DNA of 64,000 bases from Bradyrhizobium macuxiense (GTDB taxonomy: Bacteria; Pseudomonadota; Alphaproteobacteria; Rhizobiales; Xanthobacteraceae), in NCBI RefSeq assembly GCF_001542415.1, contig NZ_LNCU01000019.1, positions 103,421-167,420 of the forward strand, given 5' to 3'. Position 1 is the stretch's first letter. Every line of letters starts with the position of its first letter. A program made the translations under genes and the position numbers. Positions 35,471-50,087 of this stretch are shown piece by piece. The notes under the pieces are model-generated. The model saw nothing but the letters and a program-made list of their open reading frames with translations, did not search any database and was not told where the DNA came from.

Positions 35471-36865
35471 CTAGCGCTCGAACAAGGACTGCTTCACCGC
35501 ATCGAATGTAATCGCCCAAAGCTGATGTGCCTTCCAAAGACCGAGCGCTGCCGGTGGCGTTCCGAATTTGGCCAATCCGGATCTGCTCGGAGCGAAAAGA
35601 TACGCGCCGCCGGTTGGCTTTATCCAATCCGCGACAGGAGCGGAGATCTGGATCGGGCCAGCGGGGCTCTGTATCTGCATGGTGCGCAGGGCCCCGTCGG
35701 AGCGACCGACCAGGAGATCGTTGCCGCGACCCGGATTAAGGGCACTATTCATCCAGTGCTGCGTGAGAAATTCGAACTGAGATTTCACGGAGGATTGGAA
35801 GGCGAGAAAGGCTAGACCTCTGTCGTCCTGCGGCGCCGCGTCGTAGAGCGGCCCGAACGGTACGCCTCGACGGAGTATTCGCGGTACCTCAAGCACGTCC
35901 TTGGGCCCGTTCCTCGGATTGATCTTTCTTATGTGGGCACCGAGAGGGCAAGAGGCTCCGTCGGGATCACCTTTGAAGTCGAAGTCGTTGCTGGGCGGAA
36001 ACTGGCCTGGATCCCGGGTCTGACCGGTTGCGACTGGAGTGCCCGACTGCCAACGTCCAACGATCAGGGCCCCAAGAAGGTCGGCGGTAAGTCCCGGCCA
36101 CTGCGGAGCGAGACGCATCGCTTCCGCCGCGCAGAAGGCACGAAATGCCCCGACGTCTTGAGCGAGTCGGCGGAATACGAGAAGAGATCCATTGTCGGTC
36201 AACCCTCGCGGATCGACCACGGGCCAGAAGGGGTCGGATCCCGCATCCTTCGGATAGCCGAAGAGGAAGTTGCCGGGCTGCAGTTCGCCGAGATCGTCAA
36301 AGCCGGCGACCTGCGGCTGGGAGATCCCGTCGCGAAAGCCGAAATGTTCCCGGTCGTCAAGTCTGCGCAACGTCTCGCGATACGTCGCGGACATTCCGGC
36401 TGTCAGAGCGCTCGTCTCCAGATCCTGCGCCCGCGAAGCTGCGACTGCTTCGTCGTTTGAAGCGACGATCAGGAGAACGTCCACCGGCGCTTGCGTGCCG
36501 CCGACGCGCCAACCTGAGGGGTCGGACTTGTCGCCGAGCACGGACGGAGCGCGCTTTGCCATGCCGTTGTTGAAGGCATCGTCGCGAATGAGCACATCGA
36601 ATTGCGTCTTGCTGAGAAGACGTTGACCTATTCCGACGCAAAGCCAAGGACTTACGGTCGCGGCCGACGACTTCATGGCCTCCCGCTGCGCGCGGACCTG
36701 GGAAACTGTGGTGACCGCCGGCGATAGGCTCGCCGCCCAGGCCGCCGCGCGCTGGAAATCCGCAGCATCCACCACGGTGAGCGCCACCAACTCCTGGATG
36801 TCCGTGTTGAACCCCCCGAGGACGTTCCCCTGTATGTCGTTGATATCCAGAACCCGATCGGTCAT
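35471..36865 (-). CDS. DyP-type heme peroxidase
   Basis: A 464-residue dye-decolorizing peroxidase. The family GxxDG motif is GFRDG at 176-180, with Asp179 the distal acid. The proximal heme ligand is His311 in GAHIRKINPRN. No Tat or Sec signal is visible, so it is probably cytoplasmic or exported with a partner. The ATG overlaps the stop of the 467-residue unknown gene by 4 bases, which makes it the last gene of the split-LodA operon. A peroxidase could use H2O2 made by an amine or amino-acid oxidase, or act in cofactor maturation. Confidence 0.9.
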   Translation of the reverse strand: MTDRVLDINDIQGNVLGGFNTDIQELVALTVVDAADFQRAAAWAASLSPAVTTVSQVRAQREAMKSSAATVSPWLCVGIGQRLLSKTQFDVLIRDDAFNNGMAKRAPSVLGDKSDPSGWRVGGTQAPVDVLLIVASNDEAVAASRAQDLETSALTAGMSATYRETLRRLDDREHFGFRDGISQPQVAGFDDLGELQPGNFLFGYPKDAGSDPFWPVVDPRGLTDNGSLLVFRRLAQDVGAFRAFCAAEAMRLAPQWPGLTADLLGALIVGRWQSGTPVATGQTRDPGQFPPSNDFDFKGDPDGASCPLGAHIRKINPRNGPKDVLEVPRILRRGVPFGPLYDAAPQDDRGLAFLAFQSSVKSQFEFLTQHWMNSALNPGRGNDLLVGRSDGALRTMQIQSPAGPIQISAPVADWIKPTGGAYLFAPSRSGLAKFGTPPAALGLWKAHQLWAITFDAVKQSLFER

Positions 36866-38265
36866 CTAACGACCGAACGCGGCTGGATCGCCGACATCGT
36901 TTTGGAGGCCGGCTTGACGGTCGACACCGCGACGGCGGCATTTGCAGGAAGCAGATCCGGGAAAGCGGGCCGAAAGCCATCGCTGCAGCTCCCGTCGCTC
37001 AATTCGAGCTGCGCGCCCTTTCGGCAGCATGTCGCATCACACTTCACTTCGGGGCCGACCGAAGCATCGCTCCTCTTCCACCGAGTGACGAAAAGGTGGA
37101 CCGAAAGCAACTCCGCTACCTGGCCCGGGAAGAGAACCTTGTTTCCGCCGACCAACAAATCTTGGATCGTCAACTTTTCCTTGGCCGGCACTTCGAGCTC
37201 GAGACGCAGTACCCGACTGGCGGAAGCATCCCAAAGATCGGCGCCGCGTACGACGCGCCACCATTCTCTTGGCACCTTCGTCGAATTGTCCGGCAGCAGG
37301 AGGCCGGTATCTTCGATGCCAGCGATGTACAGACCCACGGGGTTGGCCAACGTATATCGATAGCTCTGCAACACCTGGGCATAAGCCTGCTGCGAGATCA
37401 GCGGATCGCTATTGCGGTTCGGATTCCCTCCCCGATTGCAGCACAACAGCTTCTCCGCGTCGCTTCCGTCCAGCCGCGTACCGTCGGCCTTCTTCCGTAT
37501 GATTCCGGAAACGCCGGCGAGGTTGACTTCCGCGCCGAGCGAATTGGCGCGGTGCGACAGATGAACGATGCCTGGGTTGATGTTGTACCTGTTGCGGGGA
37601 TTGAAGCCACCCGGCTCGACCACAGCCTTCGTCGTGCCGTTCTTGAGACGGCGATAGATACCGTCCTTGGCGCGGAGGTCGTCGGCCTTCAGATCCGGCA
37701 GGCCCGTGAAGTCCTTGTAGAGCTCCAGAGCGCGGCCTTCGTCGTGGGCGAACAATTCGGAGAAATAGTCATATCCCTCCGCCACGAACGTGATTTTCGT
37801 AATTCTTCCCTGTTCGTCCCGCCGTGCGGCCCATTCCAGATATTCGTCTTGGCGATCGCGAACGGGAAGGTGAAGGACCCTGTCGTGCCGGTCGATGAAG
37901 ACGCCGGCAGGATGGTCCTCCTCTCCGAGATGCTCGACCGCTCTGTAGTTTCCGTCGGGATCGCCATCCGCCGGCGGATAATCAGGCCACGGGGCCCTTC
38001 GGGACACCGCTCTCGGAAATCCGTTCCATGGCTGGATCGGCAGGGTCTCGGCGCCCGCCGGCGGCGCGGTGCGGGTGGGATCGACGTAGGCGAGCGTGTC
38101 GCGCTCTGCTTCGATCTGATCGTCAGTCGGGCTTTCCACGCCCAGACTGGAAGCGGCAAGGATCGCGATGATGTCACGTGCTTCCTTTTCCATGGCGCGG
38201 TGCCAGTCGATCGGATTGCGGAAATCCTTAAGTCCGGCGGGCGCCTCGAAAATCCAATCGGTCAT
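36862..38265 (-). CDS. Unrecognised 467-residue protein of the CTQ operon
   Basis: A soluble protein starting ATG 38265, preceded by GGAGAGGTGG. Notable stretches are MTDWIFEAPAGLKDFRNPIDW at the N-terminus, RHDRVLHLPVRDRQDEYLEW and GGFNPRNRYNINPGIVHLSHRANSLGAEVN in the middle, and a Cys-rich C-terminal part (EVKCDATCCRKGAQLELSDGSCSDG). I do not assign a family. It overlaps the small gene upstream and the peroxidase gene downstream by 4 bases each. The position suggests a structural or maturation role in the same pathway. The Cys cluster could bind metal. Confidence 0.6.
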   Translation of the reverse strand: MTDWIFEAPAGLKDFRNPIDWHRAMEKEARDIIAILAASSLGVESPTDDQIEAERDTLAYVDPTRTAPPAGAETLPIQPWNGFPRAVSRRAPWPDYPPADGDPDGNYRAVEHLGEEDHPAGVFIDRHDRVLHLPVRDRQDEYLEWAARRDEQGRITKITFVAEGYDYFSELFAHDEGRALELYKDFTGLPDLKADDLRAKDGIYRRLKNGTTKAVVEPGGFNPRNRYNINPGIVHLSHRANSLGAEVNLAGVSGIIRKKADGTRLDGSDAEKLLCCNRGGNPNRNSDPLISQQAYAQVLQSYRYTLANPVGLYIAGIEDTGLLLPDNSTKVPREWWRVVRGADLWDASASRVLRLELEVPAKEKLTIQDLLVGGNKVLFPGQVAELLSVHLFVTRWKRSDASVGPEVKCDATCCRKGAQLELSDGSCSDGFRPAFPDLLPANAAVAVSTVKPASKTMSAIQPRSVVR

Positions 38266-38519
38266 TCCACCTCTCCCCACAGGTTGCAGAGTACGACATC
38301 ACGCCACTTTCGTAGAAACTTGCACCGCCGTTCGAGATAGCCGCTCGGCACGGACATAGTATCGAAGCCTGAAAGCCGACTCCTTCGCGCTTCGGCCGCG
38401 GCAGGCAAGATCATTGCCCGTAGCATTTTGCCTTGATGACCTTTGCTGCCGACCACCGCAGTTTTCGCGTCGAGTTCGAGACGATCGACATTCCGCCAAC
38501 CAGTTCCATCAGACGGCAA
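38262..38519 (-). CDS. Small protein (about 85 aa) of the CTQ operon
   Basis: The stop overlaps the next gene's ATG by 4 bases, exactly like the other junctions in this operon, which argues that it is translated. The likeliest start is TTG 38519, overlapping the end of the FAD gene by 11 bases. A longer GTG start at 38579 lacks a ribosome binding site. The product is basic and ends ERRCKFLRKWRDVVLCNLWGE, with two Cys and two Trp near the C-terminus. No family is recognised. Confidence 0.45.
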   Translation of the reverse strand: MPSDGTGWRNVDRLELDAKTAVVGSKGHQGKMLRAMILPAAAEARRSRLSGFDTMSVPSGYLERRCKFLRKWRDVVLCNLWGEVE

Positions 38520-39885
38520 CCGCAATCTCGTGTTGCCAGCACCAACCCAGTAATGCCATGGCTTTTTCTGGCGAGCCACTTTGGGACCACAGGCTGACGA
38601 CCTCCGATGCGGCGATGCCTGCCGATAGAGCGCGCATCATCGGCCCGAGGGACACGCCGTCAAAGTAAGCTACCGGCTCACCGATGTTGGGATGCATTAG
38701 AGACTTGACGCGAACCACAAGGTTATCGACGAGACAAGGCGCTTCAACGAATGTCACTTTTTCGGACATTCTGAGCACCTGCCCCGGCGACGGCAATGGA
38801 GGGTTAGTCGCTGATGAGGACGTAGCGGTCGAAGACGCTGTTGCTCGGCTATGCCAAAAGCTCGTCCGGCGCGCCGCATAAGCTTCCGCGTATCTGTGCG
38901 AGGCCCAAGTCTGATGGGTCTCGGATCGCGAAATCCGGCGATAACTCCAATATTCGTTTGCGGCGGCGTGGTCCGCCGATTCGGTGAGCAGAGTGTTGAT
39001 GACCGGGCCGGCACAAAGAGCCGATTGAATAGCCGCCTGAACCCCGCTGGACGAAAGTGGATCCAACGCAGCATCGGCGTCCCCGATTCTCAGAAGCCCG
39101 TCTTGGTCGCCTTCCGCAATATACGGTGTGGCGTCGCATACCCTTGGCGGCGTGGCCAGCTCGAGCCCGGGCTCGATGGCGTCCGCATCCTCAAGCAAGC
39201 TTCTATAGCGCTCGTCCAGCGAACCCTTCATGCGACGAAGGAGGCCCGGGTTTGTGAAGGCGACGGCGACGCGCTTCCTCCGTCCGGTCGGCGCCGCCCA
39301 GGTCCAGGAGGCGTCCGCGGCGGAGATCCGAACGGCCCGCCGAACTTCACCCTGCCATTCGCCATGAACCGCGACCGTAGGAGTTCCGCGCCGACGTCGA
39401 TCGCGATGTCCCGAACTTCGCCCTCTCGCGTCGACCAAAAAGGCGGCACGCACTTGTCGTATGCCCGTGGACGTGCCCACGTCCGCGACCCAGCCTTCTG
39501 CGGCACGCGAAAAACTCAGGACCATGGCGGGCTGGAGGACGCGCACGCGGTTTGCGGTAGCCATGGCGAGCATGTCGGAATCGAACTGCCCCCGATCGAC
39601 GAGCAATGCCTTGATAGGCGTCGGGGTAAAACTCGTCGATTCCCACCGCCGCTCGATCGGCAGCCCGATTTGATGCGCAGAATGATCGAGGATGTGTTGC
39701 ACGCCCAAAAAGTCGAGCTGTGAAATTACGCCCGGGCTGAGACAAATCCCGATGTGATCACGGGGGAAGGCGGCCGCCTCGCACAAGACCACGTCTCTGC
39801 CCAGTCGCGACAGAGCGAGTGCGCAGACCGCCCCTGCCGGGCCGCCACCGATCACCAGCACTTCTGCATCTGGCATCATCCTCAT
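38509..39885 (-). CDS. FAD-dependent monooxygenase/halogenase-like, QhpG/LodB-type
   Basis: A 458-residue flavoprotein. The ADP-binding motif is VLVIGGGPAGAVCALALSRLG near the N-terminus, and the second FAD motif GLLRIGDADAALDPLSSSG is about two thirds in. Length and motifs match tryptophan halogenase-like monooxygenases that include LodB and QhpG, which hydroxylate the precursor Trp during CTQ formation (family knowledge). ATG 39885 overlaps the radical SAM stop by 4 bases. I infer that its substrate is the split LodA-type protein encoded two genes upstream. Confidence 0.75.
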   Translation of the reverse strand: MRMMPDAEVLVIGGGPAGAVCALALSRLGRDVVLCEAAAFPRDHIGICLSPGVISQLDFLGVQHILDHSAHQIGLPIERRWESTSFTPTPIKALLVDRGQFDSDMLAMATANRVRVLQPAMVLSFSRAAEGWVADVGTSTGIRQVRAAFLVDARGRSSGHRDRRRRGTPTVAVHGEWQGEVRRAVRISAADASWTWAAPTGRRKRVAVAFTNPGLLRRMKGSLDERYRSLLEDADAIEPGLELATPPRVCDATPYIAEGDQDGLLRIGDADAALDPLSSSGVQAAIQSALCAGPVINTLLTESADHAAANEYWSYRRISRSETHQTWASHRYAEAYAARRTSFWHSRATASSTATSSSATNPPLPSPGQVLRMSEKVTFVEAPCLVDNLVVRVKSLMHPNIGEPVAYFDGVSLGPMMRALSAGIAASEVVSLWSQSGSPEKAMALLGWCWQHEIAVAV

Positions 39886-41249
39886 GAAGCCGTCCGGGAT
39901 TTCGCGCCGAATGCCCGGTCCAAACCTTCCGGGCCCAATCGCAGGTACGCTTGCAGAGCGTAGTGTAGCCACCCCCGTATGAAATCACACGCCGGTCTGC
40001 CGCGGGCGATCACCTCGTGATGACAACCGCCGCCGCAGAGATATCGCGCCCAACATGTGCGGCAGGGCTCTTGTTTGTGGACGTGACGGCGCTCCAGCCA
40101 TGCGTTCTTGCGATCATTGTCGATACCGGCGCCGATCGATCCCATCGCTCCGGCTTCGACGCCGACGAACCTGTGGCATGCGGCCAGCTCGGCGTCCGCC
40201 GAAACTGCGAGGTAGGCGCCTCCGGCCCCGCATGGATAGGGTCGATGAGTTCCCCTGTGGATCTCCCGGAGAGCGGTCGTCATGTTGGAAAATGCATATC
40301 TCTCCCCAGCCATGACCTTCCGCTCGAATTTCTGACCGCATTCGATCATCGCGGTAAGCATGTTCTGCAGCGCGACCTCGTCCATCTGTCCGCGTCCGGT
40401 CGGCGATGCAAGCATTGGAGAAAATCCGACGCTATGGAAGCCGATGCCCAGAAGTTCGTCGAGCGTCTGTTTCAGCGCCAAATTCGTCGGCGTGACGGTC
40501 ACGCGCGCAGTCGTTTGCATCCGACCGGCGCGTCCCAGCAGCGGTCCGATGCGCTCGATAATCCGCTCGTAGCTTCCGCTACCGCCTTTGAAGGGTCGCA
40601 ACTGGTCGTGTACGGCTGCCCGACCATCGAGACTGATCGTAACGGCAAATCCGTGGCGTTCGAAGAAATCAGCATCGTCGCGGTCGACCAAGGTACCGTT
40701 GGTGGTGATCGAGAAGCCGATCTTCTGACCTCTCGCAGCGGCTTTTTCCGAAGCGTAAACCGTGGCCTGACGCAAGACGGAACGATTGATCAACGGTTCG
40801 CCGCCGAGAAAGGCGATGTTGATGGATTCGTCCGCGCGAGTCTGCCCGATGAGGAGATCGATGGAGGCCAAGGCTGTCTCGAGCGACATATTTTTCGGCG
40901 ACGCTCCGAAATCGCCTTCCTGCGCGTAGCAATACGTGCAGCCGAGATTGCATTTTTGCGCAATGGCTAACGAAATGGCGCGCACGGGAACATCGGTGGG
41001 TGCTTCGTCACAGATGCGTCGTGGCTCCGTCGTCAATCCGAGCTTCGTCAAAAGACCTGAGACCTCTTCATCGTTCGTAGCCGCCACGAACTTTGCGAAC
41101 GTATCGGCATCGAGATCGAAGAGTTGGCTGCCGTCGGCGAGGAAAAGATGACCTTGTCGTCCAGTGCAGAGCAGATGCACATCGCTGAACTTCGGCTTAC
41201 CGATTTCGGCAAAACCAGACGTCATCTCCGATTGCGCCGTCCGGTTCAT
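39882..41249 (-). CDS. Radical SAM/SPASM peptide maturase, QhpD-like
   Basis: A 455-residue radical SAM enzyme. The AdoMet-binding [4Fe-4S] motif is Cys100-x3-Cys104-x2-Cys107 (CNLGCTYC). The SPASM domain has Cys340, 358, 396, 399, 405, 409 and 421 in the usual order for two auxiliary clusters. Such enzymes modify ribosomal peptides or proteins, as in sulfatase maturases, PqqE and QhpD. The start ATG 41249 overlaps the stop of the LodA C-terminal-half gene, so that protein is the most likely substrate. QhpD makes Cys-to-Asp/Glu thioethers, and a similar job is inferred here. Confidence 0.85.
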   Translation of the reverse strand: MNRTAQSEMTSGFAEIGKPKFSDVHLLCTGRQGHLFLADGSQLFDLDADTFAKFVAATNDEEVSGLLTKLGLTTEPRRICDEAPTDVPVRAISLAIAQKCNLGCTYCYAQEGDFGASPKNMSLETALASIDLLIGQTRADESINIAFLGGEPLINRSVLRQATVYASEKAAARGQKIGFSITTNGTLVDRDDADFFERHGFAVTISLDGRAAVHDQLRPFKGGSGSYERIIERIGPLLGRAGRMQTTARVTVTPTNLALKQTLDELLGIGFHSVGFSPMLASPTGRGQMDEVALQNMLTAMIECGQKFERKVMAGERYAFSNMTTALREIHRGTHRPYPCGAGGAYLAVSADAELAACHRFVGVEAGAMGSIGAGIDNDRKNAWLERRHVHKQEPCRTCWARYLCGGGCHHEVIARGRPACDFIRGWLHYALQAYLRLGPEGLDRAFGAKSRTAS

Positions 41250-42094
41250 TTTGGCGGCGGCTCCTGGATCCCGCCCACAACGAACCGAAGCACAGATTCC
41301 CAGGATTTGAACAGATCGTCGTAGCTGAGACTGGATTGGAAATCCCGATTGTCGACGATGTAGCTTCCGGTGTTTTCCCTCTGCATCCAATTGTCGCCCC
41401 TGCTAAGGCCGTCGCCCCCCGGGACAACGTTCACGTAATCGGGACGACTCGCGGCCCAGTAATAGCAAGCGCACTCGCGATAATCGTTTTGCCACGGGGA
41501 ACAGAGTCCTTGACTCAATTCTCCCGGCTTCGCGAGAGACTCCGCCAAAAGAGCGAGCCGCTCGGACGCTCCATCTGCTTCATCACGTTCGAATAGCTGC
41601 CTCACCTCCAATTCGAGCGTTTGCGTCGCCACGTCCGGGTTGCCTGGCAAGACCTCCAATTTCGCTGCTTCCTTGGTGAATTCGCAACGCACCTTCGTTC
41701 CTTGCCGTCCAACGAGCAGAGCTATCGTGTTCGACCACTCCATGAAGGAGACGGCTTCAGGGCTGTCGCCGGTGGAAAGGGTCGCCGGACCGCGGCCTGG
41801 CATGACTGGACCTTGCGTCAAGACGGACATCGGTCGATCGTTGATCTTGAGCAGGCGATGACCTACGAGATCTTTGTATTTTTCGTCTTCGTAGCCAACG
41901 ACGTAGTTATTGTTCTCCGATAGCACGATACCTACGAGGAAACGACGCCAGATGGCTCGGAAGTCGAATTCCAAGCCCGGAAAACAGTTGGATATGGCGG
42001 AAGATGGATGGGTCACCGGCGGATTGCCGCGCCCGCGGTAGCTCAGTTGCGCCGCGAGGTTGCGGGGTGTGATCTTCGCGTCATCGCCGCTCAT
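41246..42094 (-). CDS. LodA C-terminal-half protein with CTQ-like Cys/Trp motif
   Basis: A 282-residue protein that matches the C-terminal part of the LodA-like protein at 48078. Its SSAISNCFPGLEFDFRAIWR corresponds to the LHECLGGPFHPGIELTW region there, and PWQND(x3)C...YW corresponds to PWQTD(x3)C...FW. The motif contains Cys198-x5-Asp204, Cys208, Cys210, Trp213 and Asp219. The quinone Cys and Trp are probably Cys208 and Trp213. The extra Cys198 and Cys210 are absent from the LodA neighbour but occur at similar spacing in the QhpC gamma subunit. No signal peptide. It overlaps its neighbours on both sides by 4 bases. Confidence 0.65.
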   Translation of the reverse strand: MSGDDAKITPRNLAAQLSYRGRGNPPVTHPSSAISNCFPGLEFDFRAIWRRFLVGIVLSENNNYVVGYEDEKYKDLVGHRLLKINDRPMSVLTQGPVMPGRGPATLSTGDSPEAVSFMEWSNTIALLVGRQGTKVRCEFTKEAAKLEVLPGNPDVATQTLELEVRQLFERDEADGASERLALLAESLAKPGELSQGLCSPWQNDYRECACYYWAASRPDYVNVVPGGDGLSRGDNWMQRENTGSYIVDNRDFQSSLSYDDLFKSWESVLRFVVGGIQEPPPK

Positions 42095-43479
42095 TCTTCA
42101 GCACTCCCTCCGAAGAACAATCCGCTCGCAACCGATTTTCGGATCAGATCGATTTGTCGTCGCGTGAGCGTCATATAGCGTGCGTCCGCACCTCGCATCA
42201 TGGCCGGCATCTTGCGTCGTCCTTTGTCCGAAAGGTCGCCAACTTCCTCGGGTCGGCGCAAAACGTCGACGAACCACGGCGGCGTTCCGCTCTTCAGAGC
42301 AGTAAGAATAGTTTGATGCAGGGCGACCACCGAAAGGTTGTCGACGAGAGTCGTCGCCATGATCGGAGCGAACATCCGGTGGAAGTCGTTGGAGTCTTGC
42401 AAAGGCATCATGCTCTCGGCGCCGAGGCGGCCGTCGACCGGATTGCCGTTTAGGACGGCGGTGTTCAGAAGCCGGACGGTCTCGTATGCTCGTCGGACGA
42501 TGTCTTCTACCCGATCAGCCGATACGTCGGCCGATCGGACTTCCGGCCCGAACAGGGCTTGTTCAATTTCATCGGCAACCGTCCGTATCGGTAGGGAGTC
42601 CGGTGCGAACGCTGGCGGACCGGCCCCGATCCGAGCGAAGGCGCGTAGCTTCTTTTCGCCGATCTGGATCTCAGCTTCCACGATGCCGTCGCACTCGTCG
42701 TCGAGATAGCCCCAACTGACCTGCGCTCCCTTTGCGTTCGCGTATCCGGCGTAGATCTGCCCCGGATTGGTGTCGGTAGGCTCACCGGGGTCGACCCAGC
42801 CACGCCATGTCGCATGCTCCTTGGTCGGATCGTAGATGACCCGGTCCTTCACGATTTCATCGATTTCGGTTACGGGACCGTTCACGCCATCTGCAGTGAT
42901 GCGCGTTTCCGAAGCTCCGTAGACCAGTCCGGCCGCGGGCGTGTAGCGCAGACGTATTTCGGGAAAGGCCGCGTTCGGCTTGATATAGCGGGCAGAACCG
43001 AGAGGAAGAGTTTTCCCCGGAAGGAAATTGTCGCAACGACCTTCCAGCGGATGAACGTCGTGGTCGCTGAAGGAAGTCGAAGCGAGAATCTTGTCCTGCT
43101 CGATCGTCGTACGACGGAACGCCTTAAGATTGCCCAGTGAGACGGTCCATTTGACGCTGCGGGGATTGAGGCCTTCGGCGGCGAGGAGGTCTACTGTGAG
43201 CGGGACCAACTTCTCGCCATCCGTTCTGGCGAAGACCTCGAGAAAAGGAGCCACCGGCCGGATGCTCTTGCCATCACGGAACTTGATAGGCATTTCCGGC
43301 TGGTAGGACTCCGAGATTTCTCCGGTTCGTGTATTGACCCGTAGTGTCTCTGCGGCGCAGATCTGGCGATGCCCCAACGGGTCTTTTACGACGAGTTCGT
43401 AGTTCTCTAGCGGCTCTTTGGAGGAACCGAGCCGCGCGATGGCGAGCGGCGGAAGGATCCGGATTTCATGAATGCTCAT
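42091..43479 (-). CDS. LodA N-terminal-half protein
   Basis: A 462-residue protein related along its length to the first part of the LodA-like protein at 48078. The opening IRILPPLAIARLGSS matches IFPPLGVARVGN. VKWTVSLGNLKAF matches IEWKVGVANLKAG, DDECDGIVEAEI matches DDVCDGPVRATV, and the end MPAMMRGADARYMTLTRRQ matches LPQMFGDAYG...LSVTRTQ. The catalytic C-terminal part is missing and is supplied by the next gene, which overlaps by 4 bases. LodA is therefore split into two polypeptides here. No signal peptide is seen. Confidence 0.7.
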   Translation of the reverse strand: MSIHEIRILPPLAIARLGSSKEPLENYELVVKDPLGHRQICAAETLRVNTRTGEISESYQPEMPIKFRDGKSIRPVAPFLEVFARTDGEKLVPLTVDLLAAEGLNPRSVKWTVSLGNLKAFRRTTIEQDKILASTSFSDHDVHPLEGRCDNFLPGKTLPLGSARYIKPNAAFPEIRLRYTPAAGLVYGASETRITADGVNGPVTEIDEIVKDRVIYDPTKEHATWRGWVDPGEPTDTNPGQIYAGYANAKGAQVSWGYLDDECDGIVEAEIQIGEKKLRAFARIGAGPPAFAPDSLPIRTVADEIEQALFGPEVRSADVSADRVEDIVRRAYETVRLLNTAVLNGNPVDGRLGAESMMPLQDSNDFHRMFAPIMATTLVDNLSVVALHQTILTALKSGTPPWFVDVLRRPEEVGDLSDKGRRKMPAMMRGADARYMTLTRRQIDLIRKSVASGLFFGGSAEE

Positions 43480-44915
43480 GCGCCCTCCTTCGAGCGACGA
43501 ACGCCGGTGCGCACGGTGGACGCCCCGGCGTAAAGTCGCATCTCTTCCGACGCCTTCGCATCGAGGCTCAGCAACGTGGCGGCATATTCAGCGTGCTCGC
43601 CCTTGCAGATGACCTTGTCTTCGAGCAGCGCCCGACACGCCGTCAAAAGGTCGATATGCAATCGCCAAAAAGCGGCGTCGCTTTCGGGAAGCTGGAGCGA
43701 ATAGGGCATCTGAAACGGCGCCGCAGCCTTTTGTTCGCCGGCCACATTCAATGGAAGGCGGGAAAGCACGGATGCAACCGCCCTCAAAGTATACATTTCG
43801 CCGAACATCCTATTGATGACGATACCTTGCCGTCGCGTCAGGCCGCCTTCGCCCGGAGAGCTATGGGAGTGCGCAAGGTAACTGAGCAGCATGCGATAAC
43901 GGATGTTGAAGACATTTGCCCATTTGCCCGCCTCGGCGTCCTCGATCTGCGCCTGCCCCTCTGTTGCCGGCAGACCCGGGGCCACCGGATTCGACGGCAC
44001 CGGCAGCGTCGCTTCCCATTCGCCGTCCTTGGGAAAATGTCTAAAGATTGCGAGAAATCGCCTGAAATGCGAGGATTCGTCGTCCTGCGCGGCAGCCTTG
44101 TTGGGAGCTTCTCCCTGCTCCGCAATGGCAGTCAGCGCGGCCACGGCATCTGCCCTTGAGGCAGCCCGCATAACCAAGACGTCCGGCGTCTTCGTCGTTC
44201 CTGCGACCGAGGATCCACGGGCTCCCTTACCATAACCCCTTGCATATTCGTCCCAGGACGATTGCGTCGGATACGATTCCGGGTGGAATTCCGAGCTGGC
44301 GAGCTTTGAGGGGTCGCCGACGAGTTCGATAAGCTTCTTGTATAGCGCGCCGACGCGATTGACGTTCATTTTGTCGGGGCCGGCCGCCAGTTTTTCGATT
44401 TCCTTGCGTTCTGCCACGCTGACGTCATCCGGCCAGGTTTCCGGAGATTCGGTGACGATGTACTTCGCCAGCGTCGCTCGCGTGAGGCGCTCTAGAGCGA
44501 ATGGGTACGGGGCGAGCACGGAATCCCAAGGATAATCCTCGCGATCGAGCGCGAGCGGCGCTCCGAGGAAACGGATGACGTTCTGGACGGTGGCAAGATG
44601 TCCCATCTCCTCCTTCGCTATGCCAAGGATGATCTGACGCCACTTCGCGACTGCTTCGTGATGCTCCTCCGGCACTTGGGGGCCGCCTAAGGACCATCCC
44701 GCATACAGGTATTGGACCATTAGCGAATGCTCAATTTCCGCCGCGACGGTGAGAAGGAAAACGGCGAATTCGCGCCAAGTGAACTCGGGAGGCGGAGCAT
44801 CCGACGGCGCCAGCTTCGCCCCGGTGAGCATCATCATTTCGACCCTAGGGGAGGCGGATAATCTGGGCGCAGCCGAAAAAAGGCTTGCGAGGTAACGTTC
44901 GTTGCGCGCACGCAT
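43476..44915 (-). CDS. VioB-like ferritin-fold protein
   Basis: A 479-residue protein with a ferritin-like domain of the type found in the C-terminal part of VioB/RebD proteins (iminophenyl-pyruvate dimer synthase-like). Possible di-iron ligands are Glu60/Glu62/His63 (AAEIEHSLMVQYLYAGW) and Glu102/Glu103/His106 (KEEMGHLATVQNVIRFLGAP). It is the first gene of the eight-gene operon and overlaps the LodA N-half by 4 bases. The start ATG 44915 follows GGGGAT. A role in oxidative chemistry on the quinoprotein or its product is inferred. Confidence 0.75.
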   Translation of the reverse strand: MRARNERYLASLFSAAPRLSASPRVEMMMLTGAKLAPSDAPPPEFTWREFAVFLLTVAAEIEHSLMVQYLYAGWSLGGPQVPEEHHEAVAKWRQIILGIAKEEMGHLATVQNVIRFLGAPLALDREDYPWDSVLAPYPFALERLTRATLAKYIVTESPETWPDDVSVAERKEIEKLAAGPDKMNVNRVGALYKKLIELVGDPSKLASSEFHPESYPTQSSWDEYARGYGKGARGSSVAGTTKTPDVLVMRAASRADAVAALTAIAEQGEAPNKAAAQDDESSHFRRFLAIFRHFPKDGEWEATLPVPSNPVAPGLPATEGQAQIEDAEAGKWANVFNIRYRMLLSYLAHSHSSPGEGGLTRRQGIVINRMFGEMYTLRAVASVLSRLPLNVAGEQKAAAPFQMPYSLQLPESDAAFWRLHIDLLTACRALLEDKVICKGEHAEYAATLLSLDAKASEEMRLYAGASTVRTGVRRSKEGA

Positions 44916-44990: not shown

Positions 44991-45075
44991 CTTGTCGAAA
45001 CGCATGTTGCTTTAGGATCGTCATGCGGGCGCACGGAATTCGCTCGTGACGACACGGTTCGATCCGGAGATCCGC

Positions 45076-46296
45076 ATGGGCCTTCTCGCTACGCAGACGG
45101 TGCATCCCGGTGCGCAAGTGAACGTGCTGGGCACCGAGATCTGTCAAACGATTCAGAGCCCCGCGAACGACGTCCCTCTCGTCCGCGGAAAGCGCACCCT
45201 CGTCCGAGTCTACGTCGGACCGACGGGCTTCACCGGTGCTGCCGAAGTTCAGGGCGAGATCGAGGTCGCGCCGTCCGCGGCGGCGACGGCCAAGTACGTC
45301 GCCTCGACCGGGACCATTTCCGTCAAAGCGACCGCCTATCCCGATTTGAATGCCCAGCGTCGGGATATCCGGACAAGTCTCAACTTTATTCTTCCTGCCG
45401 ATGTACTGTCCTGGTCCAGCCTGACCGTACGCGTGAAACGCCTGTTCGCGGGAGGATCCGACATTCCCGTCGGAGCGAACGCGCCGGTGACCGTTTCGAT
45501 GATCGAGGCCGCTCCCTTGCGTATCAAGGCCATCGGCCTCCGCTACTTGCTTTCGACGCCTGGTGCTCCGCCAAAGCAGATCGCGCCGGCGGCATACCAC
45601 TTCGATTATCTCCGCTCTTTCCTCGACAGAGCCTATCCCGTGTCGACGATCGAATGGTCGCAGCTCGTCGTGCAAGCCGACCCGCGCTTGGCCCCGCCTT
45701 TCTCGGGCCCGACGACCCCTGATGGCAATGACCCGCTATGGCTGGGCAAGCTCAACATCGCGCACAATCAGCTCTCCGCGATCCGCGCGAAAGACCTCGA
45801 CGCCGGAACCGATCCGCGCACCCACTACTACGGACTGATCTCGGACGCCGATCAAGGCCTGTTTTTCCGAGGGGCGGCGAAGGATATTCCTCAACAACCC
45901 AATCCGTCGATCGTAGCGGTCGGGCCGACTGGTAATCCAGCCCAATACCCCTCCCTCTCGTGGGACACCGAACGATCCTATGGCGGCTGGTACGGATCCC
46001 ACGAGCTCGGACATACGTTCGGAAGATATCATCCGGGCTTCTGCAATCAGGATGCGAGCGACCCGAGCTTTCCCTATGCAGACGGCCGGATCGGAGACGT
46101 CGCGAACGGAGACATGATCGGCGTCGACATGGGAGATCCGTCCCTGGGAATCCCGATGCGGGTCATGGCAAACGAGAGCTGCCATGATATCATGACCTAC
46201 TGCGACAACCAGTGGATCTCCGCCTACAGCTATCGGGCAATCCTCGATCGCTTGAGCCAAGAGGACACGCTCTTTGCTCCGGTAGCCGGAGCATAG
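45076..46296 (+). CDS. Zinc metalloprotease with HExxH motif
   Basis: A 406-residue protein whose zinc site is HELGHTFGRYH (His309, Glu310, His313, His319), the metzincin-like HExxHxxGxxH form. The N-terminal 150 residues are beta-rich (VRGKRTLVRVYVGP, GEIEVAPS), perhaps an Ig-like domain. The C-terminal ESCHDIMTYCDNQWIS provides the Met-turn-like part. No classical signal peptide is visible. ATG 45076 has GGAG 6 bases upstream and is preferred over GTG 45046. The gene is divergent from the CTQ operon and followed by a small partner gene. Precursor processing, like QhpE, is a possible job. Confidence 0.75.
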   Translation: MGLLATQTVHPGAQVNVLGTEICQTIQSPANDVPLVRGKRTLVRVYVGPTGFTGAAEVQGEIEVAPSAAATAKYVASTGTISVKATAYPDLNAQRRDIRTSLNFILPADVLSWSSLTVRVKRLFAGGSDIPVGANAPVTVSMIEAAPLRIKAIGLRYLLSTPGAPPKQIAPAAYHFDYLRSFLDRAYPVSTIEWSQLVVQADPRLAPPFSGPTTPDGNDPLWLGKLNIAHNQLSAIRAKDLDAGTDPRTHYYGLISDADQGLFFRGAAKDIPQQPNPSIVAVGPTGNPAQYPSLSWDTERSYGGWYGSHELGHTFGRYHPGFCNQDASDPSFPYADGRIGDVANGDMIGVDMGDPSLGIPMRVMANESCHDIMTYCDNQWISAYSYRAILDRLSQEDTLFAPVAGA

Positions 46297-47088: not shown

Positions 47089-48078
47089 CTAAGAAGGAGG
47101 AGCCGACGGGGTGAGCTCCGTGGAGTAGCGATGCCCGCGATCGGGGAGTGTCGAATAGGTCAGCCGGCGTCCATGCTCTGCGTTTTCGAAGGTACGCCGG
47201 ACGGCCTCGGAGTAGGCTCGAGCGGCAGGCTCTCCCAAGCCGGCATTCGAAACGACCGCACCCGCGATCGCGAGCGCGGTGGACAGTGCGTTCGCGATCC
47301 CCTGCGAGCAGAGCGGATCGAATGAGGCGGCCGCGTCGCCGATAGCGGCCCATCCTGGACCGGCCGAGGGAAAGCAGAGCACAGATGACGCGTCCACGAC
47401 CTGCCCCCTCGACCCGCGCAGATCGGCCTTCGAACCCACTTCCCAAGCCTCACATCTGCCTTCCGGCCCCTCGAGGCGGTAGCTCCAGCCAGCCGAATGG
47501 CTTTCAACCAGCAAGCGACCCCTCGTATCGGTCGGGACAGCTTCTTTTCGGCACGCAAGCAGCGCTTCGTGAAGCACCCTTCGCGCACCGAGGCGCCTCG
47601 CCAGAGCAGCCGCTCGGCCTGATGCATCGACCACGGTACGGGCGAACACCGTGATGTTCAGGCCGTCCCGACGTACGCGCGCGCGGAACATCGAATGCTC
47701 GCGCTCGACCGCGACGATTCTACCGCATATGAAACGGGCGCCCGCCTTTCGGCTGACCTCGCGAAGAACTCGGTCCAGACGACGCCGATCGATGGCGTAC
47801 CCTGCTCCGCCCCGGTGGCTCAAGAACTCCTCGACCGAAACTTTGGCGCCCCAATCCCGCCGGATGCCTGAGCAGAAGCGCACCAGGTCGGGATCTCGCA
47901 ACAAACTGCCGAGACCTACCGCATCGAAGAGCCTGGTGGTGGAAGGGGCTACCAGCTCGAGCCGTTCGGTTGTCCCAACCATCGGGTCCACGACAGCAAC
48001 GTTCATTCCGCCGTTGGAAAGCAACGCCGACACCGTCGCGCCGGCGGGTCCGGCACCGCAGACCAGCACGTCCAACAT
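47089..48078 (-). CDS. LodB-like FAD monooxygenase
   Basis: A 329-residue flavoprotein with ADP-binding motif VLVCGAGPAGATVSALLS at the N-terminus and the second motif WAAIGDAAASFDPLCSQG. The ATG overlaps the last base of the LodA stop, so the two are translationally coupled, as in other LodA/LodB pairs. LodB-type proteins are needed to generate CTQ in LodA, probably by hydroxylating the Trp. At 329 residues it is shorter than the second FAD protein of this region (458). Confidence 0.8.
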   Translation of the reverse strand: MLDVLVCGAGPAGATVSALLSNGGMNVAVVDPMVGTTERLELVAPSTTRLFDAVGLGSLLRDPDLVRFCSGIRRDWGAKVSVEEFLSHRGGAGYAIDRRRLDRVLREVSRKAGARFICGRIVAVEREHSMFRARVRRDGLNITVFARTVVDASGRAAALARRLGARRVLHEALLACRKEAVPTDTRGRLLVESHSAGWSYRLEGPEGRCEAWEVGSKADLRGSRGQVVDASSVLCFPSAGPGWAAIGDAAASFDPLCSQGIANALSTALAIAGAVVSNAGLGEPAARAYSEAVRRTFENAEHGRRLTYSTLPDRGHRYSTELTPSAPPS

Positions 48079-50087
48079 CAGATCTCGCCCTGCCGATATC
48101 GGCGTTTTGGCGCTTGAGGCGCCTGCAGGACCAGTCCCCTGGACGCCTGCGCGACTTGCGTAGGCTCATCGTTACGAAGATCTTCGACGAATGCGACGAG
48201 CCCCGGCTTCGGATCGGATCCGGGAAAATCGCGATTTCGTCCCTGCTCGACACGAAAACCGTCAGGAAAATCCGGCGACGGATCTTTTACGGCGAGCACC
48301 ATTCCCAATTCCCACCATTCTTCGACCATGTGGGCTATGCGCGCATAGTAGTCGAAACCCCGGACGTCCCGCAGCCAGTCGGAGCGGGTCATCAGGTATT
48401 TGGAGAATTGCTCCTCGTTCCCCTTCTTCCCGATCGCCGCCGCGATGGAATAGTTCTCGAACGACATCACCTGGTCGGGGACGCGTGCGCCCCAGAACGT
48501 GGGCATGGACAGGAATGTGCTCGGACTATAGTCCGCGTCGGAGTTGCAGGACGCTCCATCGGTTTGCCATGGCACGCCGAGGAATCGCGTCAACGCACCG
48601 GCGGCGACGCCGTCGAACGGTCCTCCGGGGCCGCAGCATACCTGGGGCGACAATTCCGGCCCGAAGTCCTGCTTGGCCGGATCGTCGGTAGGTAGCACCT
48701 TCAGGCGATAGCCGCCCTTCCAGACGTGCGGAATACGCATGGTCCACGTCAACTCGATCCCCGGATGGAACGGCCCTCCTAGGCACTCGTGCAGAGGGGC
48801 GCGGTTCAGATGCTCGATCTGCTCAGGCGGCGAGAGCTTATCGAATTCCGCGAGCGTCGGAATACCGGTCCAGTCGTCGGCGAAGTTTCCGTCTGCCCAG
48901 CGCCCCAGATGCTCCAACTGCGTGCGCGTGACCGAAAGGTAGTTGAGCGCGTCGGGAGGCGTGCCTTTCGGACTCTCGCCATACGCATCTCCGAACATCT
49001 GCGGCAGGGCCGGCTCGTTGAAGGGTCCCGTCGCGGCCGCATCGCGGAACAGCTTGAAGACCCTTGTCCGCCACGGAGCCATTGCAGCGGCTGGATTGCG
49101 CATTTTCGCGACGACCTGCGCGTTTCGGGCGTCGAGAGGTGAACCGAATCCATGCATGACAAATAGGCCATGGTTCACCCACTGGAGGCCGCTCATCCGA
49201 TCGAAGATCGGCCAAACGTCCTTGGTGAAGGAGGTCGAGCTCGGAGCTGCGATCCAGCCTTGGCTTCGGAATACCTCTCTGACTGTGTCGTCCATAGTAA
49301 CGAGGCCAAATGTCCCCGGCGCAAAGTTCGGTGGCGTGACCGCGACGTAAGCGGGCTCCGCTTCCTTGGACGAGCCGTCGGCGAAGGTAACGGTAGCGCG
49401 CACCGGACCGTCGCATACGTCGTCGTGCCAACCGTCATTATTGGCAAAGGTCGTCGGCATGAGACCCTTGCGAAACGGGACGGAAGTGCCTCGGCCGCCG
49501 AGGAAGATCAGGCGCCCCGCATCGTCGGTTTGCAGTTCGCCGAGATAGACCGGCGAACCGGCCCAGAACGTACCGTCGTCGAGGGCGAACTCCGGACCGG
49601 ACTTGTTGGGCCCCTCGATCTCTTTGGGACTCGGAACGATGTCCAATCGGGCGCTCCGGCCCGGGACGGGTATCCTTGCGTTTCGCTTCTGTGCAGGCTT
49701 GGCGATGCCCCGCGGAAGATCCATGGCCTGATTGAATTCGTACCAGCCCGCCTTCAGGTTGGCTACGCCGACCTTCCATTCGATGCGGATCCCGTCGCTG
49801 GCCGTGACCTCGAACGTTTCGCCGTCCGTCGACGTCGCATAGATGCGGAAGCGGACCGCCTGGCGTTTGATCTTGCCGTCCGCGGTCCTGAAGTCGGATT
49901 CGTACATCGCGGCGGCGCCATTCGGGAGCGTCGGCCATCCGCCTATGACTTCCGATGCGATCACGTATTCGCCCTCGCCGTCTGCGTTACCGACCCTGGC
50001 TACGCCCAAAGGCGGGAATATCGCGAGTGAAGCGACCGTCGAGCTGGATATCCGTGGTGCGTTAGGTTCTGCCTTGGGTTCGGCCAT
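48078..50087 (-). CDS. LodA-like CTQ-dependent amine/amino-acid oxidase
   Basis: A 669-residue LodA/GoxA family protein. The N-terminus IFPPLGVARVGN is the LodA opening. The C-terminal active-site part reads LGVPWQTDGASC (Cys514) then TFWGARVPDQV (Trp532), with Cys484 and Cys485 nearby. Cys514 and Trp532 are my candidates for the CTQ pair. LodA-type enzymes oxidise the epsilon-amine of lysine or glycine and release H2O2 and ammonia, some serving as antimicrobial proteins. The substrate here is unknown. AGGGG precedes the ATG and an 18-bp dyad is 132 bp upstream. LodB follows. Confidence 0.82.
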   Translation of the reverse strand: MAEPKAEPNAPRISSSTVASLAIFPPLGVARVGNADGEGEYVIASEVIGGWPTLPNGAAAMYESDFRTADGKIKRQAVRFRIYATSTDGETFEVTASDGIRIEWKVGVANLKAGWYEFNQAMDLPRGIAKPAQKRNARIPVPGRSARLDIVPSPKEIEGPNKSGPEFALDDGTFWAGSPVYLGELQTDDAGRLIFLGGRGTSVPFRKGLMPTTFANNDGWHDDVCDGPVRATVTFADGSSKEAEPAYVAVTPPNFAPGTFGLVTMDDTVREVFRSQGWIAAPSSTSFTKDVWPIFDRMSGLQWVNHGLFVMHGFGSPLDARNAQVVAKMRNPAAAMAPWRTRVFKLFRDAAATGPFNEPALPQMFGDAYGESPKGTPPDALNYLSVTRTQLEHLGRWADGNFADDWTGIPTLAEFDKLSPPEQIEHLNRAPLHECLGGPFHPGIELTWTMRIPHVWKGGYRLKVLPTDDPAKQDFGPELSPQVCCGPGGPFDGVAAGALTRFLGVPWQTDGASCNSDADYSPSTFLSMPTFWGARVPDQVMSFENYSIAAAIGKKGNEEQFSKYLMTRSDWLRDVRGFDYYARIAHMVEEWWELGMVLAVKDPSPDFPDGFRVEQGRNRDFPGSDPKPGLVAFVEDLRNDEPTQVAQASRGLVLQAPQAPKRRYRQGEI

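Follow-up and report, generated by a model that had tools for sequence, protein, structure and literature searches.

A 64,000-nucleotide stretch of the 8.7 Mb genome of Bradyrhizobium macuxiense (contig NZ_LNCU01000019.1, positions 103,421 to 167,420; hereafter the window) carries a five-gene cassette that probably makes a relative of the LodA-fold oxidases, stapled by Cys-Asp thioethers, dihydroxylated on a Trp and likely to act as a cysteine tryptophylquinone (CTQ)-dependent amine oxidase with a ferritin-like partner. CTQ has been described in two settings: quinohemoprotein amine dehydrogenase (QHNDH), with its stapled 9-kDa subunit, radical S-adenosylmethionine (SAM) enzyme and QhpG, and the large oxidases LodA and GoxA, with LodB or GoxB. 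A first-pass annotation of this DNA had proposed that the operon combines both schemes, and indeed LodA-type halves are found with QhpD-like and QhpG-like enzymes in one conserved cassette. With somewhat less assurance, though still on balance, we favor the broader view that this is a third kind of protein-quinone enzyme, in which a radical SAM enzyme staples a large globular LodA-fold protein, QhpG-type chemistry provides the CTQ and the product works in complex with a di-iron ferritin-like subunit, a system that would link LodA/GoxA and QHNDH as one family. The cassette and the relevant sites are:

43476..44915, minus strand: FER, ferritin-like protein, 479 residues (PF12902, 107.6 bits, E 1.1e-30)
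42091..43479, minus strand: LN, LodA-type N-terminal half, 462 residues (LodA_N, 18.6 bits, E 0.0021)
41246..42094, minus strand: LC, cofactor-bearing C-terminal half, 282 residues (LodA_C, 20.3 bits, E 4.8e-4)
41969..41986, minus strand: C37-x-PG-x-E42 of LC, a possible third thioether pair, counterpart of C..PGWE in QhpC
41438..41503, minus strand: cofactor motif of LC, C198 to D219, six residues invariant in the alignment
39882..41249, minus strand: RS, QhpD-like radical SAM/SPASM enzyme, 455 residues (TIGR03906, rSAM_PapB)
38509..39885, minus strand: FAD, QhpG-like flavoprotein, 458 residues (NF049967, QhpG)

The open reading frames (ORFs) of the first-pass annotation are present where it placed them, and the four-base ATGA overlaps it described can be read in the sequence at all four core junctions (43479, 42094, 41249 and 39885) and at two more (38265 and 36865). 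Because ATGA junctions lie there, RS most likely starts at 41249 and FAD at 39885 rather than at the starts of the longer ORFs.

Scanning an alignment of LC against one genome per species confirmed 142 loci, and our counts rest on 80 of these. With the window added (81 loci), LC and RS are found in 81, LN in 79, and FER and FAD in 78 each. The full five-gene set is present in 76 loci, every one of which has the order FER-LN-LC-RS-FAD by stop codon on a single strand; a gene order found nowhere else had been named beforehand as grounds for dropping the proposal, which therefore stands on this point. Three of the incomplete loci (L012, L068 and L079) end at contig edges and two (L003 and L004) are genuine exceptions. 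The complete cassettes span at least six phyla (Bacteroidota 32, Pseudomonadota 29, Myxococcota 5, Actinomycetota 5, Verrucomicrobiota 2 and Planctomycetota 1), the other two of the 76, one of them the window, having no phylum in this count; both Acidobacteriota loci are incomplete. A plasmid of Mycetohabitans endofungorum carries exactly the five cassette genes with transposase genes on either side, and a second plasmid-borne five-gene cassette is found in Bradyrhizobium septentrionale. The records of both name the genes, in order, ferritin-like protein, hypothetical protein (twice), radical SAM protein and tryptophan 7-halogenase, and compact relatives are already annotated in records as "LodA/GoxA family CTQ-dependent oxidase".

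An ordinary LodA/LodB-like pair lies 2.2 kb from the cassette in the window (47089-50087, minus strand), and two other loci (L009 and L057) are arranged likewise, as one might expect if an ordinary LodA/LodB pair simply stood beside an unrelated radical SAM gene. Such an accidental grouping is exceedingly improbable: the order of the five genes is held across loci, the M. endofungorum copy consists of just these genes between transposase genes, and the cassette flavoprotein does not fall on the LodB side of its tree. We consider it refuted by the conservation. The window's ordinary LodA is a single chain of 669 residues (LodA_N 207 bits, GoxA E 1.2e-40) without the extra cysteines described below, and is followed by a LodB/QhpG-like flavoprotein of 329 residues.

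That LN and LC belong to one LodA fold, as the first-pass annotation had suggested and had named as a condition for its proposal, is supported by natural fusions. The two lie in one ORF in 41 of 79 loci, and an AlphaFold 2 model of one such natural fusion, searched with Foldseek, matches LodA/GoxA end to end. Because the chain occurs in one piece about as often as in two, its division is not what is essentially new here. A second cassette in the same genome (L091, contig 32, 110500-129500) comprises an LN of 549 residues, an LC of 586 residues that includes a fused ferritin-like domain, RS and FAD. Compact single-chain forms of 391 residues (L099) and 418 residues (L129 and L131) are also accompanied by RS and FAD. 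The L099 product, from a genome of the same genus (G290), is 100% identical to a protein of Bradyrhizobium sp. NAS96.2; L099 passes both the LodA_N and LodA_C cut-offs of Pfam, and by residue content it would have two Cys-Asp staples, and L129 and L131 one. An insert in LC is predicted to be PDZ-like.

The cofactor motif of LC reads LCSPWQNDYRECACYYWAASRPDYVN, with C198 as the second letter and D219 near the end, and its C198, D204, C208, C210, W213 and D219 are invariant in all 37 rows of alignment A1 of LC (the LC search gave 1144 homologues, 120 of them listed). When the window's ordinary LodA is aligned with GoxA, PWQTDGASC...FWGARVP pairs with PWQSDAASC...SWWAANLP, and on the LodA/GoxA alignment D204, C208 and W213 correspond to the conserved Asp, the CTQ Cys and the CTQ Trp, residues given as Asp678 of GoxA in the available text of PMC7876137 and as Cys516 and Trp581 of LodA in that of PMC4417212. 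The QhpC example used for comparison is LCQPMEADLYGCSDPCWWPAQVADT; hhalign pairs the six LC residues, in order, with the counterparts there of QhpC C27, D33, C37, C41, W43 and D49, and the C198-D204 spacing is identical to that of the aligned Cys and Asp. We take C27-D33 and C7-E16 to be thioether pairs of QhpC. For LC, we predict from its motif thioethers C198-D204 and C210-D219 and a C208-W213 CTQ. In QhpC, three Cys-to-Asp/Glu thioethers accompany a Cys37-Trp43 CTQ, with Cys41-Asp49 among the bonds named (PMC7876137, available text). A third pair, C37-x-PGLE42, may be equivalent to C...PGWE of QhpC: C.PG[LI]E is found in 85 of 95 proteins with C198 and C.PGxE in none of 31 without it. It is the least certain, because a Cys ten residues before that Glu is also present in several ordinary LodA proteins. 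W213 is in place in 93 of these 95 proteins, which were found with a search pattern that itself required D204 and C208, and in L129 and L131 the Trp is one residue nearer.

Ordinary LodA matches QhpC with E 7.7e-5 (probability 62), and in whole-genome searches a LodA-like profile of ten rows, seven of them of the cassette type, retrieved two QhpC genes (E 1.6e-4 and 7e-4), both beside genes of the QhpD clade; the B. macuxiense genome itself gave no QhpC match.

RS scores 330 bits (E 2e-98) against the QhpD family TIGR03906, below the cut-off of 453, with rSAM_PapB as its second-best family (281 bits, cut-off 340). Its CX3CX2C motif is present in all 93 rows, another eight Cys are conserved in 92-93 of them, and in a quick tree RS forms a clade apart from the QhpD of qhp operons. 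FAD scores 265 bits against QhpG (NF049967, cut-off 240) and 94 bits against the LodB model (cut-off 400). In a quick tree with several long branches, from which proteins of fewer than 300 residues were dropped and in which L009_12218 was relabeled by hand, a branch with support 100 sets the cassette flavoproteins and QhpG (three qhp-operon rows and one from L109) apart from 27 LodB-type proteins. The enzyme had been called QhpG/LodB-like; by score and by tree the first half of that name holds and the second does not. Two loci (L092 and L127) have LN, RS and LC, the last ferritin-fused in L092, but no FAD gene was found on that strand within 6 kb.

According to the available text of PMC7876137, the qhp system has its CTQ Trp dihydroxylated by QhpG, and the placing of the cassette flavoprotein on the QhpG side thus bears on whether the product is a quinone enzyme at all. 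RS might make the thioethers and FAD only hydroxylate W213, so that the product would be a crosslinked protein with a binding or structural role and no CTQ catalysis. The residue before PGLE, which in the examples aligned is Phe, Tyr, Cys or Thr and in GoxA His, fits this in that the substrate pocket may differ. We nevertheless think it unlikely, as the modeled LodA fold is whole, the CTQ Cys, Trp and Asp are conserved in all 37 rows and the flavoprotein lies on the QhpG side of its tree.

A stapled LC is in keeping with the company that C198 keeps. Among 126 LodA-like proteins in 129 loci, 95 have C198, and each of these has RS on its own strand, at a distance of no more than 6 kb in 94 cases. 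The other 31 have Ala, Gly or Ser at this position and none has the second extra Cys; 28 of their loci are without RS on either strand, and the remaining three (the window, L009 and L057) hold, next to a cassette, a separate ordinary LodA that has a flavoprotein gene of its own. Left out of this count were L001 and L082-L090 (short duplicates) and 49 LodA-like ORFs without W-x-x-D-x3-C, namely 47 N-halves, one QhpC (L109) and one ordinary LodA truncated at the edge of its contig (L110). The patterns used to find loci L002-L081 lie inside the motif; in the fairer subset L091-L138, not chosen by such patterns, RS is present for 14 of 14 proteins with C198 (all from the search with LC as query) and absent for 28 of 28 without it. 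The association is consistent evidence, not independently replicated.

The second extra Cys, C210, can be followed in a set of 329 proteins drawn from three homologue lists (120 of 1144, 120 of 145 and 120 of 200 matches listed), after seven of 336 proteins without the motif pattern, one of them the window's ordinary LodA, were excluded. Of the 160 proteins with C210, 159 carry Asp at position 219, as against 21 of the 169 that lack C210. Position 198 is Cys in all 329, and D204 and C208 are not evidence here because the pattern required them. In a tree of 208 compact relatives a single change accounts for C210, whose 40 rows form one side and all have Asp at 219; the state of position 219 needs 18 changes. 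C210 and D219 thus behave as a pair. These data speak to a further alternative, that the extra Cys are metal ligands or form disulfides and that the task of RS is instead to close the Cys-Trp bond or to modify FER. C198, C208 and C210 are near enough to one another that they could together bind a metal or cluster, yet the way D219 goes with C210 is that expected of a Cys-Asp pair, the C198-D204 spacing is exactly that of QhpC, and RS is kept where the ferritin match is absent (L099) or weak (L129 and L131). We rate this alternative as unlikely, marginally more so than the non-quinone protein considered above.

The case for FER as a working partner of the putative oxidase is best made by the second architecture, since there the ferritin-like PF12902 domain is fused to the C-half itself. 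FER residues E62, E102, E103, H106, E156, E269 and H283 are conserved in 81 of 81 rows with a letter there (83 rows in total), a set of Glu and His that suggests a di-iron-type site. Similarity to the VioB model is partial (45 bits, cut-off 1250). VioB is described as a heme b protein with catalase activity that dimerizes the imine product of VioA, a flavin oxidase (PMC9705886, available text), and PF12902 ferritin-like genes adjoin fungal lodA-like genes in the available text of PMC4417212. Separately, at L098 (4142-8029) an ordinary LodA and an iron-containing redox enzyme domain (PF14518, Haem_oxygenas_2) form one fused protein, and iron domains may recur with LodA proteins.

Several observations weigh against a stapled CTQ enzyme of the LodA fold. 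LN and LC score below the Pfam cut-offs for LodA_N (18.6 bits against 26.3) and LodA_C (20.3 against 25), the cofactor region of the fusion model is of low confidence (segments 667-670 and 673-689 have a predicted local distance difference test score, pLDDT, below 50), and the model of LC alone is poor (pLDDT 62). The match of LC alone to QhpC is weak (E 0.033, probability 1.5%), C210 lies three residues before W213 rather than two as in QhpC, the C208-W213 spacing is 5 rather than 6, and no QhpC-like leader was recognized in LC by eye. With two candidates scored per genome, the LodA-like profile did not list the QhpC of eight other genomes known to have it (G027, G051, G079, G112, G625, G629, G701 and G727), which may not all have been among the genomes drawn. 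On a tree built without the motif columns (72 of the 126 proteins entered, L132 being dropped by the tree program), the C198/RS association amounts to one change, and C210, on the tree of compact relatives, is likewise a single change without independent replication.

Downstream of FAD lie two more genes:

36862..38265, minus strand: accessory protein, 467 residues, of a family not recognized by Pfam or NCBIfam
35471..36865, minus strand: accessory DyP-type peroxidase, 464 residues (TIGR01413, 126.7 bits, above the cut-off of 100.5)

The 467-residue protein, without a Pfam or NCBIfam match up to E 1, is found in three of the 81 loci, all of which also have a DyP gene, and has one more homologue in L134; the DyP gene is found in four of the 81. 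Being rare, both are accessories. An eight-gene operon had been proposed, of which seven minus-strand genes are supported and five make up the conserved unit. Although it too ends in an ATGA overlap, the eighth, a "small protein" (38262-38579), drew no match at E 1e-10 from the 80 loci and probably does not represent a real gene. A plus-strand ORF (45046-46296), situated between the two LodA systems, encodes a 416-residue protein with HELGHTFGRYH, a metzincin-like zinc protease motif.

We propose the following scheme. The N- and C-halves would assemble into one LodA fold, a pairing carried over to this genome from the fold predicted for the natural fusion. By analogy with QhpD, RS likely makes the C198-D204 and C210-D219 thioethers and possibly C37-E42; by analogy with QhpG, FAD likely supplies W213 with its two oxygens, and joining of C208 to W213 would give CTQ. 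The mature enzyme would use O2 to oxidize a primary amine or amino acid and release H2O2, the acceptor being proposed because the seven operon proteins examined contain no heme c motif (CxxCH), a search that did not extend to the rest of the genome. H2O2 is released by amino acid oxidases (PMC4417212 and PMC4699246, available text). By analogy with VioA/VioB, FER probably serves as a subunit dealing with the imine or the H2O2, and DyP may use H2O2 in this genome. Both the CTQ and the thioethers are predictions from sequence.

Compared with LodA/GoxA (L-lysine 6-oxidase, 2ymw/3weu; glycine oxidase, 6byw), the cassette fusion has, in its model, the same fold along the whole chain and the CTQ-site Cys, Trp and Asp. 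It differs in being often two chains, in having a radical SAM enzyme and a QhpG-like rather than LodB/GoxB-type flavoprotein, in its Cys at 198 and usually at 210, and in the separate or fused ferritin-like partner of most members. With QHNDH it shares QhpD-like and QhpG-like enzymes and a CxxxxxDxxxC motif, CTQ Trp and Cys-Asp pair in register with QhpC, whose Cys-Asp and Cys-Trp positions are matched at the sequence level with a weak score, the C7/E16 counterpart being less certain. In contrast to QHNDH, with its QhpC of ~107 residues, the cassette has a globular protein of 282 residues (~750 when fused) that scores 12.4 bits against QH_gamma (NF037958, cut-off 50), an RS below the QhpD cut-off in its own clade, and no CxxCH in the operon proteins examined that would point to a diheme alpha subunit. 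PapB-type ranthipeptide maturases make Cys-Asp thioethers; RS falls below the cut-off of that family, and the neighboring protein that it probably acts on is half of an enzyme rather than a small peptide. As in VioA/VioB, a PF12902 protein stands beside a likely amine oxidase, although the VioB cut-off is not reached. Our literature searches brought up no publication that pairs LodA with a radical SAM enzyme, and a survey of lodA-like genes and their lodB neighbors does not contain the word "radical" in its available text (PMC4417212).

The cassette thus unites the part sets of QHNDH and LodA/GoxA in one widespread system and suggests that their two motifs descend from a common ancestor. If our reading is true, radical SAM stapling extends to a large enzyme, and the compact versions of 391-418 residues, with their predicted two- and one-staple forms, are suited to testing the role of each staple. 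It would also give a function to proteins entered in RefSeq as "hypothetical protein" and "tryptophan 7-halogenase".
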